Source of the DNA: Ilex aquifolium
Taxonomy: Eukaryota > Streptophyta > Magnoliopsida > Aquifoliales > Aquifoliaceae
Length of the DNA: 64,000 bases
Reading direction: 5' to 3'
NCBI GenBank assembly: GCA_951799425.1
Contig: OX637399.1
Span: 34,941,701-35,005,700 of the forward strand
In this document: in pieces, positions 45,046-63,975 of the stretch
Layout of the letters: the number at the start of each line of letters is the position of its first letter
How positions within the stretch are numbered: the stretch's first letter is position 1
Notes under the pieces: model-generated
Databases searched by the model: none
What the model was told of the DNA's origin: nothing
Seen by the model: the letters and a program-made list of their open reading frames with translations, nothing else
Translations under genes and position numbers: made by a program

Positions 45046-45151
45046 TTAATTTTAGGGTTAATTGCACTAGAGGTCCCTAAAATATGAGGTTTGTCTCATT
45101 TTAGTCATCAATGTTTCAATTGAATCATTTTGGTCCCTGAAGTATTGAATA

Positions 45152-45977
45152 TCTATATAATAAAGTAGTTTACAATTTAAATTTCAAAAGATAAACAAAA
45201 TGACTTTTGCTTTTCGCGGTTCAGATCGCTTTAAATTTTACTTTAGAGTTAATCTAACGGCTAATATTAACACCACAAATTTAATAGGAAAAATAGACCC
45301 CTAAAGGGTGTGTTTGGAGTTACTTCTTAAAAGTACTTCTACAAATTATTTTTCATAAGTACTTTAAAAAAAAAAATAGTGTTTGAAACTGTCTCACCAC
45401 TACCACTACCACCGCCACCACCACCTCTACCACCGCCACCATTACCCCTGCCCCCACCACCGCCACAACCCCCACCACCGCCACCGCAGCCGTCGCCGTC
45501 GCCGTCGCCGTCGCCGCCACCACCACCACCACAACCACCGTCGCCGCCGCCACCACCACTACTACCACCACCACCACCACCACCACCACCGCCGCCGCCA
45601 TCGTCATCACCACCACCACCATTATCGCCCGCCACCACCACCACTGCCACCACCGCCACCGTCACCACCACCGTCGCCGCCGCCACCACCGTCGCCACCA
45701 CCACCACCACCACCGCCGCCATCGTCACTCAAAACCCACCACCATCATCACCATTCCCACCCACGACTGTTACCACCACCATGGTCATCGCCTTACCCAC
45801 CACAACCATTATCGTCTTCCACCATCACCATTGTCGCCCACCACCGCTCACTCCCACTACAATCGATGCTTAAATTTTTTTATCTCTCCTCTATGTTTGC
45901 GATTTGATTTTAGGTGTGAATACAAATATGTTGACTTTTTTTATTACTCTGTGCCTTCAGGCACGAGAAATAACTAG
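45152..45977 (+). mobile_element. Non-autonomous Helitron inside the foldback element
   Basis: Begins TCTATATAATAAAG and ends with the hairpin GTGCCTTCAGGCAC, nine spacer bases and CTAG. It sits between host A (45151) and T (45978), as Helitrons do, with no TSD. The other arm of the host element shows the joined A-T site, confirming both edges. The interior holds a C-rich (CCA/CCG)n trinucleotide array at about 45395-45750. No Rep/helicase gene is present. A related inverted copy is at 62788-63975. Confidence 0.87.
45395..45860. repeat. Imperfect (CCA/CCG)n array within the Helitron
   Basis: Trinucleotide-period sequence switching between CCA, CCG, TCG and CAC. Both strands stay open in several frames, giving long Pro-, His-, Thr/Ala-, Val- and Gly-only ORFs that are artefacts of the repeat. 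Confidence 0.9.
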
Positions 45978-46639
45978 TGTTTCTATATAGTCCCTCAAGC
46001 AGATAACGTCCAGATTTCTAATGATTTTTTATCATAAACTTGTCATATAATACCTAAATATAGACAAAAAAATAATTTTAATAGCTCTTAAACAAAATTT
46101 GGGTAGCTCTTGACAAAAAAATGTGTAATATGGGTAGTTTTTGACCAAAATTTGGATAACTCATGATTAAAACTATGTAATTTAGTAGCTATTTAACAAA
46201 ATTTGAGCATAAATTTGGTCAAGAGTTATCAAAATTATTTTTTTGTCTATATTTAAGTATTATGTGATAAGTTTATGATAAAAAATCGTTAGCAATCTGG
46301 ACGTTGTCTACTTAAGGGACCATATAGAAACATATTTAATACTTCAGGGACCAAAATGATGCAATTGAAACATTAAGGACCAAAATGAGACAAACTCCAT
46401 ACTTTGGGGATCTCTAGTACAATTAACCCTTAATTTTAACCATTAATATAAATTGTGATCCCATGCATCGTATGCATCTGCAGCTAATATAGGTCATGAA
46501 ACTACAAAACAAATAAATAATTGTCATTATGCTAAATAAGTTGCAATTACTTCATTTTGGACTTTTTTAGATAGGAAGTTGAACTAAATGTCAAGAGTGT
46601 AAACAAATTGTTGGAAAATTGACCAAAACTCATGTATGT

Positions 46640-50113: not shown

Positions 50114-52935
50114 TTTGATGTGTTCGTTGTTCTTGATCTGATAGTGGGTCTTTGAATTCCTTGTTCAATTTTTGCGTATATGTGTGTGTTTAGTGGGTTG
50201 CATGTTTGTGCTGCTTGATTTGGTATTTCATATCATTTCAAGGTAGTTTTCAGATATCAAGGTTCTAGCCATTTTGAATTTTGGGCAATCTTAATTTTTT
50301 AGAGGTTATCATTTTGAATATTTGGATCTGATTCTTCTTCCTTTTTTTGCTCTTCAAGCTTCTGTTCTGTATGCTTCTGGGTCTGTGATTTACACCCAAT
50401 ACAATTGTATTGTTTCTGGGTAATTGTTTTTGGTTGAAAGTGTATTATTTAATTTTTATTCCGTTTCTGTTTTGTATTGGTATGCTTTGTTGTAATTGGT
50501 GACTCTAATGCTTTTATTTCTATTTTCTTTTCTGGGTTATTGCTTCTCCGGTTCTGTTGGTTTCTGATTCGAGGCTTATCATGGTTTAGCTTTTCTCATG
50601 AATTTGATTACTATTCCAAATATATTACTCCAGGTGAAGCAGGTCAAGGCGATATAAAGCAGAAAAACATGGCGGCCGAAGGGAGAAATCGTCGTGCTCT
50701 AGGTGACATTGGGAATCTGGCTACAGTTCATGGAATAGATTGCAAGCCACTGCCCCAAGTCTCTCGCCCTGTGACAAGGTCTCTCTCTCTCTCTCTCTCT
50801 ACATACACACACACATATATATACATACCCATCTATTTAAAGAGTTTTTTCTTTGCATTTTTTGTTCTATATTGATTATCTTTTTCTGACTTTCAGAAGT
50901 TTCTGTGCACAAGCTGCAGCAGCAGAAAATAACAAGGTCTATTTATCTTCATGAAATTCTCCTATTGAAATCTTAATTCATGTTTGTGTTAATTGGTTGA
51001 AATTTCTTGTAACTGAGAGTGTTTTGGGTCTCTTTTGATTTGCAGAAATCAGTGGCAGTGAACTTGGATGGAGCAGTTGTAGTTGATGGAGTGATAAGGG
51101 CTAAAGGAGCAGCGGCACGAAAGCCAGCTCAGAAGAAAGTTACTGTTAAGCCAAAGACTGAAAATGTGATTGAAATAAGTTCTGATTCTGAAGAAGAAGT
51201 CAAGAAGGACAAGGGTGTGAACAAAAAAAATTCTGATGAAGGGTCATCTAGAAAGAAAGCCCCAACTCTAACTTCAGTTCTTACTGCTAGAAGCAAGGTG
51301 ATATATGATTTGTTCTCAATTCTCTTCTGATTGTTCCTTTGAAAGAATATTTGGGGAAATTTTTCTTCTTGACTCTTATTCAATCCCATATTTCAGGCTG
51401 CTTGCGGTTTTGTTGATAAACCCAAGTTGCAGATTATTGATATTGATGCTGCAGATGTAAAGAATGAGTTGGCCGTTGTCGAATATGTGGAAGATATGTA
51501 CAAGTTTTACAAGGAAGTTGAGGTATTCGATCCTGACCATTGTAAATTCACTGTGGTTTCTGTTTGTTGTTATTTTGGGATCAACTACCAAAATACAGTA
51601 CTTTTTTAACTTTATTCCACAGGTACTATGATTTTGAACTTAAAATGGGAGGTTTGAGTTCGAACAATGCCTTCTTGTAAACAACAAATATAAGTTAAAA
51701 TCATAGTACGGGAATAAAGTTCGATAAATTGGTCAAAAACTCTTATTTATATGTATGTGATTGTGGTGCAGAATGAGAGCCGAGTTTATGATTATATGAA
51801 TACACAGCCACAGATAAATGAGAAGATGAGAGCCATTATGATAGATTGGTTGATTGATGTTCACAAAAAATTCGACCTCATGCCCGAGACTCTTTACCTC
51901 ACCATTAACATCGTTGATCGATACCTTGCCGTGAAGACTCTAGTAAGGAAGGAACTGCAGTTACTGGGCATTAGTGCCATGCTTATGGCCTCCAAGTATG
52001 AAGAAATTTGGGCCCCTGAGGTATCATACCACATTAGTTTTTAACGTAGTTTATGCATTAATGTATCTTTGTGTCTATTCATTAAACAAACCAGAAAGTT
52101 TTTTGAATTGTAATGTGCAGGTCAATGACTTTGTGTGTATATCAGACAGAGCTTACACCCACCAGCAAGTGTTAGTCATGGAGAAACGTATATTGGGAGA
52201 GTTGGAATGGAACCTGACTGTTCCTACGCCTTACGTGTTCCTTGTGCGCTTCATCAAAGCCTCTCTTGCTGATTCTACTGTGAGTATTTCCCTCCTCTTT
52301 ACGATCAGTTTCAACTCAATTAAGTGCAAGTTATATGTGGCTAAGATTGACTGATTTCAAATAATCTTATTTTGTATTATTGAACTCACAATTACATCTA
52401 ACCTACGTATTGAAACTCTCGTACCATAGTGTGATATCCCTACTCAAAATTGTTTTGATTGTTATTTACATTTGACAACAATTGTTGAGACAAATTGTTT
52501 GTTTTTGATCTTGTTATAGATGGAGAATATGGTCTATCTTCTGGCTGAGTTGGCTATGATGAATTATGCCACTGTAATGTACTGTCCATCAATGATAGCT
52601 GCATCAGCAGTGTACACTGCCCGCTGCATTTTAAACAAGCTTCCTGCATGGAATGAAACACTTAAACTGCACACTGGTTTTTCCGAGCCACAGCTAATGT
52701 AAATACAATTTCGTTATCTGTCACTTTTTTTTTCGATGTAGGCTACAATTGAGTTACCCTTATTTCTTTTTTTTTTTTTCTCTGAAATAGGGATTGCTCT
52801 AAAATGCTGGTCAGCTTCCACTCAATGGCAGCAACGGAGAACAAGTTGAGGGCGATTTACAGAAAATACTCTGATCCTGAGCGAGGTGCTGTTGCTCTGC
52901 TTCCACCGGCCAAGACTCTCTTGGCTGCATCGTGA
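50019..52935 (+). CDS. CYCB1;4: B1-type mitotic cyclin
   Basis: Binds and activates cyclin-dependent kinases for entry into mitosis. Nine exons join in frame: 50019-50055, 50634-50778, 50897-50936, 51046-51297, 51397-51522, 51772-52020, 52121-52279, 52520-52698 and 52791-52935 (TGA), giving 443 aa. Residues 32-40, RRALGDIGN, are a full destruction box (RxxLxxIxN) for APC/C-driven breakdown. A Lys-rich linker with [10 protein letters not shown] follows. The N-terminal cyclin box starts near residue 200 with [16 protein letters not shown] (219-234) and contains [12 protein letters not shown] and [12 protein letters not shown]. The C-terminal cyclin fold spans about 335-430. The B1 class is clear; the ;4 label rests on its position beside SCAB1, as I recall for Arabidopsis. 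(GA)n in the leader and (CT)n at 50066-50109 in intron 1. Confidence 0.94.
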
Positions 52936-55466: not shown

Positions 55467-57063
55467 GTCCCTTGCTAAAGAATATTATTATGCACAGATG
55501 TCATTGAATCTAATTAGTAATCCAATAACCTCTAATTAGTAGATAAAGAAGGTTGGAATCTCAATATCAAAGTCAACCTAAATATTCGATAAGGTTTATT
55601 ATCATTACAACCAAACACTCACTAATCACATCGAGCACCTAAAATATTCTCCTATTTGTTTAATTGATCCTCTAAAATAAATAAGTTATCTTCACATCTC
55701 ACAACCAAACACACCTTTTGATTCCCACATCAACAACAAAGTGATCAAACTTAAAAAGAGTTCCCCACAAAGTGACCTAACTTTGCATCATCTCTCTCTC
55801 TCTCTCTTTCTTTATCTCTAAAAATTCTTTCCCTTAATACCCACCACATCTTCCCCTACCGTACAACCAGTCTTACATAGCCTCCTTTTAAGCCCGTGTT
55901 GACTACGCTCTTAAGAAAATGATCACTCAATAATAGTACATCCTCTTTTTTAGACACAAAAAATACTCTCAAAAACTCCTTTCTTTTTTTTTTTTTTTTC
56001 TTTTTGAAGCAACAAATCATGGGTGCACCCTAATTTTTTTTTTTTTTTTTATAGATCACTATGAATCTTGATGTGTTACTCCTATACATTTGTTAAAAAT
56101 ATTTAAAAAAATCGCTACAAAATTGAGTATACTACTAAGATTCGACATTTGATTTGCAATCGATTGACGATAGACCGATTTTGTATGTCACATGAAATTT
56201 TTAAGGTGGGTTCACGAGTTTTCTTTCACCTAATGATGGATTTTAAAAATTAAAACAAGTAATAAATTTGTAGAGAAATTCTAAAACTTGAAAAGATAGA
56301 CCAATCAAAACAAATCCAATACACAAGTGAGGGGGTTTTGTGTTGGGTGGGGGCTGGCTCGATACAAACCAGACCTTAGCATAATCTTTCCAGTTTTTTT
56401 TTGTTGAGAAGAATCTATCTAGAAGCTTGAATTCATTAACTTCTACGAAGTAGATCCACTTTGTGCTGATGGTTGCTGTTCAATAAAAAGTGGAGCGTGA
56501 ATACACGGGTCTGGAAATAATGGGGATGGTGGGGAAGGGATATAGTGATAGTAGTAGAGATAGAAGTAGAAACATGTAAATGTGGGAAACAAATAAAAAT
56601 CTTGCAACACTCACTCTCTAAGTGTAAAAGAGACACCCCAATCCTGGAAAATAACCAACTCCAACTCCATAAAAATCACAAGAAAAGCATCACCAACAGT
56701 AACCATAAAAAGCTGAAAACAAGAAAACAAGATCCACCTCGAACACCCCTCCTCCACCACCACCACCCTCCTCCTCTCCCCACAAATTATATCGAGAGAG
56801 GGGTTGATCAGAATATACCCATCTCAGCAAATTCTATTCTCCAATTTCTCTCTCTCTCTCTCTCTCTCTCTCCAGCATCTTGATTGAGTCAATACATGTT
56901 GTTTGCTTGTTGGTATTGTTTCTGTTCTTGAATTACCAACAAAACCCACAAAATATTGAATTTACAAAACCAGCAAAACAGACCCAAAATTATTTGCAGC
57001 CCAGAAATAGGATTGAGTGTATAGAAGTGCTCAATTGGGTGTGATAGAAGTGTTGGAAAAAAA
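55467..57063. promoter_or_regulatory. Upstream region and leader of the MYBC1-like gene
   Basis: No other gene seen. It holds T-rich runs near 55983-56050 and, close to the start codon, a CT-rich leader with (CT)n at 56848-56872. No TATA box is asserted. Confidence 0.35.
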
Positions 57064-57987
57064 ATGAGAGAGGATGACTCGAATTGGTTTTCAAAGTGGG
57101 AAGAAGAACTTCCATCCCCTGAAGAGCTCATGCCCTTATCCCAGACCCTTATAACCCCTGATCTTGCTATTGCCTTTGATATCCGGAACTCAAATACCCA
57201 GCAAACTCACCAACACCAACAACCACCACCACCTCCTCCTCCTCCACTAGTTCAAACCAACCCTTCCTCCCAACCCAATAACAACAACTCCGTGGAATTC
57301 GATTCTGGCGAGTTGGGAGGAGGCGGGGCTGCTTCAGGGGACGAACCTGCTCGTACCCTGAAGCGGCCTCGGCTCGTGTGGACGCCACAGCTACACAAAA
57401 GATTTGTGGACGCTGTGGCTCACTTGGGGATCAAGAATGCTGTCCCCAAGACCATAATGCAGCTCATGAGTGTTGATGGGTTGACTCGAGAAAATGTTGC
57501 GAGTCATTTGCAGAAGTATCGTCTTTATTTGAAGCGAATGCAGGGACTTTCCAGTAATGGTGGTGGTGGTGGTGGTAGTGGTGGTGGAGGAATACCTGCG
57601 GCAGTTGACCCTGCTACAGATCATTTGTTTGCAAGTTCGCCAGTGCCAGCGCATTTTCTGAATCTGGGTAGGCCTACTTCGGACCATTACTTGCCGTTTG
57701 TGCCGGTGGCGGCGCTGCAGCAACATCATCACCACCACCACCAGCAGATGGCGGCTGTTGCCGGGCATCCACAGTTTCACCCGCAGTATAGGCCGATGGG
57801 GCATTTTGGTTCAGCGCCAAATGGACAGTTTGAGCATCCATTTCTTTCCAGGCAGTCACAGCAGCCAGTTCATAGGGTGGGGACTCCAGTGCATAACCCA
57901 GTACCCTCATATATAGAGGATTTGGAGTCGGCCACAGCAGCGAGTGGAAGGAAAGTTCTTACTCTATTTCCCACAGGGGATGATTGA
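57064..57987 (+). CDS. MYBC1: GARP/MYB-like transcription factor, MYBC1 type
   Basis: Intronless, 307 aa, nuclear DNA-binding protein. The conserved N-terminus [18 protein letters not shown] followed by [14 protein letters not shown] matches Arabidopsis MYBC1 and relatives of LUX/PCL1. The GARP domain spans about residues 100-160: [58 protein letters not shown], with the SHLQKYR signature. A Gly-rich stretch follows (about 167-178), then [12 protein letters not shown], a His-run with flanking Gln, and the C-terminal LTLFPTGDD. Pro- and Gln-rich low-complexity sequence sits between the N-terminal motif and the DNA-binding domain. MYBC1 is known as a negative regulator of freezing tolerance in Arabidopsis; related proteins act in the circadian clock. 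MYBC1 rather than LUX is chosen from the N-terminus and the SSPVPAHFL motif. Confidence 0.93.
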
Positions 57988-62787: not shown

Positions 62788-63975
62788 CTTGTTATTACCC
62801 ATGTCTGAAAATACTGAATAATTAAAAAAATAGTCAATAATAAATATATTTGTATTTATACTCAAAATTAAATCACAACCATAAAGGAAAAATAAAGAAA
62901 TTTAAACACCGATTATAGTGGGAGTGATCAGTGGTTGTGGTGGTGGTGGTAGGTGGCAGTGGTATTGATAGTGAGAGACGATGATAATTATGATGGGTGG
63001 CAACGACCATAGTGGTGGTGACAACCGGGGGTGGCAACAATGATGATGGTGGTGAGTTTTAGGTGATGATGGTGGTAGTGACAGCCATGGGTGATGGTGG
63101 TGGTGGGGCGACGACGATTGTGGTGTCGGTGGTTGGTTGTGGTGGTGGGCGATGACAAATGCTTCTGGGTGACAATGTGATAAATTGTGGCGAATGGCAG
63201 TGGTGATGGTGGTGGTAGTGGTAAGTGTGATGAGAGTTAGCGACAGTGAGTAGTGACAGTGGTGAGCGATAACGGATGGTGGTGGGTGGTGATGGGTGGT
63301 AGTGGGCAACAATAATGGTGGTGGGTGGTGATGGGTGGTAGTGGACAACAATAATGGTGGTGGGTGTTGACAACGGATGACGGTAGTAATGGTAATAAAT
63401 ATAATAATGAATGACAATAGTAGTGAGTGGTGACACTAGACAACAGTGGTGGCAATTGATGGTTGGTGGTGGTGGTGGTAAGGATGGCGGTGGGGCAATG
63501 GGGAGTGGTGCGAGTGGGGGTGGGGCAGTGGTGGTGAGGCAATGGCGGTGAGGGTGGTGGTGAGGCAATGGCGATGGTGGTTTTGAGATAGCGACAACAG
63601 TAGTGGTAGTGAGGCGGTGTAATAGTGATGGTGGTGGTGAGGTAGTGGGTGTGGTGGTTGTGGTGGGGTGACAACAGTTGTGGTGATGGTTATAACAGAG
63701 GTGGTGGTGGTAGTGGAGGTGAGACGATTCCAAACACTACTTTTTTTTTTAAACTACTTATGAAAATTTATAAGTTTTAGAAACACTTTTAAAAAATCAT
63801 CTCAAACACACCCTTAAGGGCCTATTTTTCCTATTAAATTTGAGGTGTTAATATTAACCATCGGATTAACTTTAAAGTAAATTTAAAAAAGTCTCAACCG
63901 CGAAAAGCAAAAAATTATTTTGCTTATCTTTTAAGATTTAAATTGTATTATCTTTTATTATTATTATATATATAT
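62788..63975 (-). mobile_element. Second, inverted copy of the Helitron
   Basis: On the minus strand it follows the 45152-45977 Helitron almost throughout: both share the 5' AATTTAAAT block, TTTGCTTTTCGCGGTT, CCTATTAAATTTG-type sequence (one strand), GTGTGTTTGAG, and the tail TGTTTAAATTTCTTTAT. The 3' terminus is diverged (AACAAG in place of AACTAG; the hairpin is degraded). The 5' end merges into (TA)n near 63965-63985, so its exact start is uncertain. The trinucleotide array here is about 800 bp, longer than in the first copy. Confidence 0.75.
62925..63725. repeat. Imperfect (GGT)n/(CCA)n array in Helitron copy 2
   Basis: GGTGGT/GATGGT/GGCAAT-type trinucleotide-period sequence. On the minus strand it gives several long His/Pro/Thr-rich ORFs in overlapping frames. 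Their overlap in all frames and lack of any domain argue against coding. Confidence 0.85.

Follow-up and report, generated by a model that had tools for sequence, protein, structure and literature searches.

In the usual description, Helitrons insert at AT and are otherwise not very selective about their target. According to the published account of the barley genome, the Helitron target there is asymmetric: an AAA begins 8 bp downstream of the A-T, and contact one helical turn away has been suggested (PMC5738225). Half of the Helitron copies in maize are reported to lie within another element, so nesting as such is ordinary (PMC8547701). The active Xuan-Feng Helitrons of wheat are presented as non-autonomous, moved by RepHel encoded elsewhere and inserted at AT (PMC13286980), a set of features that the Helitron studied here would share. 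Its host element resembles MuTAnT of Medicago, which is characterized by long modular arms, a foldback structure, 9-bp duplications and many copies; FARE of Arabidopsis is another foldback Mutator-like element mentioned in the same account (PMC4486113). Here we analyze a 64,000-nucleotide stretch of the Ilex aquifolium genome (contig OX637399.1; hereafter the window), in which a Helitron of this kind lies within one arm of such an element.

Structure of the nested locus

The foldback element is bounded by a 9-bp target site duplication (ttaatttta) that matches exactly between 45046-45054 and 46430-46438, as claimed in a preliminary description of the locus. The element begins with GGGTTAATTGC at 45055 and ends with ACAATTAACCC at 46429, and measures 549 bp once 45152-45977 is removed. 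Its arms, earlier put at about 210 bp, match for 209 bp without a gap when the element is aligned to its own reverse complement, and this alignment runs straight across the insertion point (E 2e-105 in a BLAST comparison of the host with the window's inverse strand). The left arm is made up of an outer 97 bp (45055-45151, plus strand), gapless against the inverse of the right arm, and an inner part (45978-46089, plus strand) that opens with TGTTTCTATAT, the 3' half of the Helitron target as defined by alignment and motif. The gapless arm alignment stops at about the asymmetric centre of the element (46090-46220). The right arm (46221-46429, minus strand) aligns without a gap through the same point, and by alignment and motif it retains the empty target that had been proposed for it, TAAATA|TGTTTCTATATGG, whose minus-strand junction falls between 46333 and 46332. 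The exact 9-bp duplication and the long, ungapped 209-bp terminal inverted repeats are those of a Mutator-like element.

The left arm is split between A45151 and T45978 by an 826-bp non-autonomous Helitron (45152-45977, plus strand), just as first reported, which runs from TCTATATAATAAAG to a CTAG terminus at 45974-45977 and has copies elsewhere with the same ends. These are the 5' TC and 3' CTRR termini of Helitrons, and a search for further copies sharing them found both ends constant at most copies. A stem-loop predicted at 45947-45967 (plus strand) supplies the short hairpin, 10 nt before the 3' end; DNA folding gave it -6.4 kcal/mol (z -3.7), none of 200 shuffles folded as well, and its sequence is retained in most of the copies examined. 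The insertion lies between A and T without target duplication, as judged from the empty site in the other arm, from 39 other hosts and from the flanks of other Helitron copies. The locus had been thought to fix both Helitron ends to the base. The proposed A|TC...CTAG|T reading is right, but the window alone lets the junction slide by 1 base because T45152 equals T45978, and it is genome copies at unrelated sites that fix the reading.

The Helitron family carries a long, strongly one-stranded CCA/CCG-type repeat, found at 45388-45868 and, in a second copy, at 62920-63720, with a length that differs between the window's two copies. The repeat gives rise to several long open frames, which are artefacts of it, and all frames of at least 100 aa in the window's nested Helitron come from it. 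At least 150 genomic matches to the Helitron_like_N domain (PF14214), not tied to these Helitron termini and several of them in frames longer than 1100 aa, are possible sources of the moving protein.

The second copy (62788-63966, minus strand) is a diverged member of the same family, for which two BLAST segments show 73% and 68% identity. The alignment reaches the same last base at the 3' end, where CAAG stands for CTAG; the 5' end merges into a TA repeat, and the right-hand flank, TATAAATATATGG, agrees with the target motif derived below. A BLAST search of the window with the host query gave no match beside this copy. Between the two Helitrons, a Cyclin_N-domain exon (51718-52041) follows the nested element at a distance of about 5 kb, with the frame of a Myb-type transcription factor (57025-57987) further on; together with the kinds of element present, these genes are in keeping with a plant genome.

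Occupied and empty copies across the genome

We searched the window's own genome (800 Mb), and L-numbers denote loci fetched from it. With the right 452 bp of the host as query and the best 40 of 2411 candidates scored, 39 other host places were found, each with an inverse match offset by about 97 bp, i.e. an uninterrupted element, so that the host copies without insert looked for in the preliminary description make up 39/39 of the other best matches. Among 29 empty copies that were fetched, none had a gap at the insertion point, and 24 had an exact 9-bp duplication (27 at one mismatch or fewer). The 826-bp Helitron query returned 78 matches from the best 40 of 6554 candidates, 77 of them besides the window copy. 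The Helitron block also occurs apart from the foldback element, since 27 of 30 fetched Helitron loci, some of which overlap each other, had no host arm at the Helitron ends. The remaining three were the window (L001), L009 and L012, and weak host-like matches at L013 and L018 lay nearby but not at the ends. Given the 39 other host copies and 77 other Helitron matches, chance is excluded as the source of the window arrangement.

A query joining the left arm to the Helitron (45055-45977) gave unbroken matches at many other loci, and 20 of about 37 such composites were fetched. A Helitron 5' end follows a host arm in all 20, and the flank directly before it is AATA in 17, with few-base differences in L062, L063 and L065. 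At L063 the first bases of the Helitron are replaced by host target letters and TGTTTTTATAT stands on both sides of the insert, as if the Helitron 5' end had been lost at short homology. Of the 17 hosts, window included, that could be oriented by their asymmetric centre, 8 carry the Helitron in the left arm and 9 in the right. The outer-arm sequence disagrees with the orientation of the centre in 7 of 17 occupied hosts; arms may therefore exchange, which makes left or right position weak evidence.

The continuous matches of arm and Helitron were first read as a single entry of a Helitron into one foldback element, after which the composite spread as a unit by Mutator transposase, and the finding that 10 of the 20 fetched composites have their own 9-bp duplication (at one mismatch or fewer) agrees with such spread. 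As the main route it is contradicted, and we consider it very unlikely. The nearest relatives of four occupied hosts are almost all empty: 39/39 for the window copy, 39/39 for L066, 38/39 for L067 and 38/39 for L076, or 154/156 together, each search taking the best 40 of some 2300-2400 candidates and the four lists sharing loci. The two relatives that lack an empty site would suit the spread of a composite. Forcing the occupied hosts into one clade was rejected (p-AU 0.00016, 17 occupied hosts), as was a clade of the left-arm group (p-AU 0.0013) or of the right-arm group (p-AU 0.0009), and the Helitrons in hosts could not be forced into one clade either (p-AU 0.0001). In the host tree, which omits 5 of 22 occupied loci on account of an unresolved far end (L009, L070, L071, L077 and L078), the occupied label falls into clusters, with 4 changes against a shuffled mean of 14.0 and 0/500 shuffles as low, a pattern that also favours spread. 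We attribute this clustering to sampling, because closeness to the window's copy was how the empty rows were chosen; wider searches, covering four hosts, found empties close to occupied hosts elsewhere in the tree.

Among the Helitrons, the host label is no less scattered than in shuffles. On a tree of 94 Helitron 5' regions, 35 of them from hosts with two L009 rows counted as host rows, the host label required 26 changes against a shuffled mean of 28.6 (82/500 as low); this tree has 236 columns and few supported branches, and omits the repeat or overlapping loci L011, L012, L022 and L029 as well as one stray row on a very long branch. The closest pair of occupied hosts, L074 and L076, is 95.5% identical, yet their Helitrons, at 92.4%, are no closer than any pair (median 91.6%). 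L009 has Helitrons in opposite orientation at nearly the same spot, which also speaks against spread of one unit. Repeated insertion fits the combined evidence, whereas spread of the composite does not, and no fewer than four host copies received independent insertions at this point.

The Helitrons at L061 (in a host) and L013 (outside) have near-identical 5' regions separated by a branch length of 0, which suggests fairly recent movement.

The preliminary description had also read the order of events from the window. The window's host belongs to a supported clade of 13 rows in the host tree, 12 of them empty, and with its close relatives empty the host is older than the Helitron insertion, so this part of the claim stands. 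A single locus cannot tell whether the Helitron entered before or after the element landed here; entry after landing is likelier, because no occupied close relative was present among the 39 best matches. The original wording of a Helitron 'captured' in one arm is misleading, as this is one of many insertions into a hotspot.

Target motif, occupancy and arrays

Helitrons of this family outside the host prefer ATA|T-N6-ATA, and each host arm holds one such site, the two being by far the best in the element. The motif was derived from 34 insertion sites that remained after removal of L020, of everything within a host, and of sites with a missing flank or with a further Helitron on the right. Upstream of the junction, A was found at -3 in 29/34, T at -2 in 25/34 and A at -1 in 34/34, this last letter being preset by the search pattern for 20 sampled loci (every fifth of 100 Helitrons listed on contig C1, one replaced; 18/20 shown). 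Downstream, the counts were T at +1 in 33/34, A at +8 in 30/34, T at +9 in 30/34 and A at +10 in 29/34, so that an A/T triplet starts 8 bp downstream of A|T as in the barley-type target, with the letters ATA and not AAA. When 1062 host positions were scored with a weight matrix, the two arm sites ranked 1 and 2 (13.4 and 12.5), and these ranks were unchanged with only the 23 sites free of TA runs. The third-ranked position, scoring 9.0, lies 73 bp inward in the same arms and served as a control site. One candidate host-site insertion, L093, was rejected as a TA repeat.

Pattern searches allowing up to 2 mismatches found 207 occupied 5' junctions, against 1 for the reversed-pattern control, and 2355 empty host sites, against 0 for the control. 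Among the matches listed, 77/100 occupied junctions were exact. The 90 bp upstream were fetched for 31 listed junctions with 0 or 1 mismatch, two-mismatch junctions being absent from the listing sampled, and 26/31 were clear hosts; one of the 5 non-host junctions, L114, has the host's terminal letters but is otherwise unlike the host and was not counted. By a flank model of non-host sites, some 41 of the 207 would be expected to match by chance, almost all of these with two mismatches. We rejected the view that all 207 raw junctions are real, with 26/31 of the sample being clear hosts, and from this fraction and the about 41/207 expected by chance, about 165-175 junctions are taken as real. 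The control site gave 9 matches and 804 empty sites, and 4/9 matches were in a host (L121, L122, L124 and L126), the other 5 not. The hotspot differs from the control site at p <1e-15 whether 166, 174 or 207 is set against 4.

These counts are of junctions, not events, and some lie in local duplicates. A cluster of six occupied junctions within 41 kb, forming three pairs about 19.5 kb apart (G000:C10:7439550-7480013), is probably a local segmental duplication carrying the composite. The four Helitrons at the control site indicate that a weaker, second-best site of the host arm is also used.

Very probably, then, a foldback element landed and motif-guided, recurrent Helitron insertion into its arm site followed. 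At this locus the Mutator-like element would have landed with a 9-bp duplication, and a non-autonomous Helitron, moved by Rep/helicase supplied elsewhere, would have inserted between the A and T of the left arm. The Helitron protein may touch its target both at the cut and roughly one helical turn further downstream, in which case each foldback copy would offer two mirror-image, harmless landing sites. Moreover, once inserted in a TATA context, a Helitron would restore a good target 2-4 bp ahead of its 5' end and would thereby promote head-to-tail arrays.

Head-to-tail Helitron arrays occur in plant centromeres, with copies joined end to start. In the present genome, 8 of 20 fetched host sites had 2-4 Helitron 5' starts, and arrays were seen both at host sites (L064, L065, L069-L073 and L078) and elsewhere (L003, L004, L017, L018, L020 and L028). 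Three kinds of junction were found: CTAG|TC joined directly, CTAG-TATA-TC, and CTAG joined to a unit without TC. Compared with the centromere arrays, some junctions here have a 4-bp TATA spacer, as in CTAG-TATA-TCTATATAATAA at L003, L004 and L020, which fits insertion upstream of the 5' end. In a made-up flank of the TATA type, positions 2 and 4 bp upstream of the Helitron start score as high as the host site, and the motif thus explains the arrays in part; given the three kinds of junction, rolling-circle read-through is no more than a candidate for their sole source. At L064, the 5' regions of units 1 and 3 are near-identical but that of the intervening unit is different, a hint that duplication occurs within arrays.

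The motif does not account for the number of occupied sites. It alone predicts about 10 (6-17) occupied host sites, a rough estimate from 28 high-scoring places among 121,324 background positions of the window and 3657 Helitron 5' ends; with about 165-207 occupied, the excess over this prediction is 16- to 20-fold, so something more is at work. Chromatin, survival of harmless insertions or foldback shape may be responsible. Coincidence between two numerous families, made easy by common A|T dinucleotides, has a negligible probability, for although A|T is the general insertion site of this Helitron family, a requirement for A|T alone would give 0.06 insertions here, and the idea is contradicted. 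The excess could also be passive, with foldback elements lying in open, gene-near chromatin and insertions being kept because they are harmless, and to this we give a little less than an even chance. It would supply what the motif prediction lacks, and it is in keeping with reports that small Helitrons lie just upstream of genes in barley (PMC5738225) and that nesting within other elements is common in maize (PMC8547701). A passive excess should raise all sites in the element, whereas occupancy is far lower at the next-best site of this arm, with the qualifier that this site also scores lower on the motif.

The foldback shape itself might attract the Helitron, e.g. through a cruciform exposing single-stranded arms. 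The 16- to 20-fold excess leaves room for such an attraction, but both compared sites are in arms and yet differ strongly in occupancy, and we think this unlikely. A broader form, with the element acting as a landing pad at which integration recognizes, besides the motif, some property of the paired arms such as single-strand exposure or a cruciform, and the recreated target then leads to arrays at the spot, strikes us as similarly doubtful.

Relation to known Helitron targets and foldback families

A search at the level of titles and abstracts, with subscription literature mostly outside its scope, found no Helitron hotspot in foldback or Mutator-like elements. The account of MuTAnT lists twenty copies with nested insertions or rearrangements and describes no recurrent Helitron site; that family also differs in its terminal sequence (GGGTTAATTGC here) and in targeting TA repeats (PMC4486113). 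Nesting in maize is presented as general, without a single recurrent target in the account, as opposed to the one target seen here (PMC8547701). For the wheat Xuan-Feng Helitrons, the text stresses AT alone, and a downstream triplet may be contained in the logos (PMC13286980).

The occupied site beside its empty twin makes this foldback element handy for mapping Helitron ends. Beyond this single locus, the genome contains one target in well over a hundred occupied and more than two thousand empty versions, and the two mirror positions together with the lower-scoring control site form a natural replicate experiment on plant Helitron recognition.

The closest likeness is to the barley target, which shares insertion at A|T and, confined to one side, an A/T triplet that begins 8 bp downstream; it has AAA where ATA is found at +8 to +10 here, and ATA at -3 to -1 is an addition here (PMC5738225). 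The barley account describes no repeated insertion at one site of another transposon (PMC5738225). Thus, the asymmetric target is already known from barley, whose one-sidedness is independently backed by the ATA|T-N6-ATA motif, while the recurrent Helitron hotspot in a foldback Mutator-like family goes beyond what was originally claimed for this locus.
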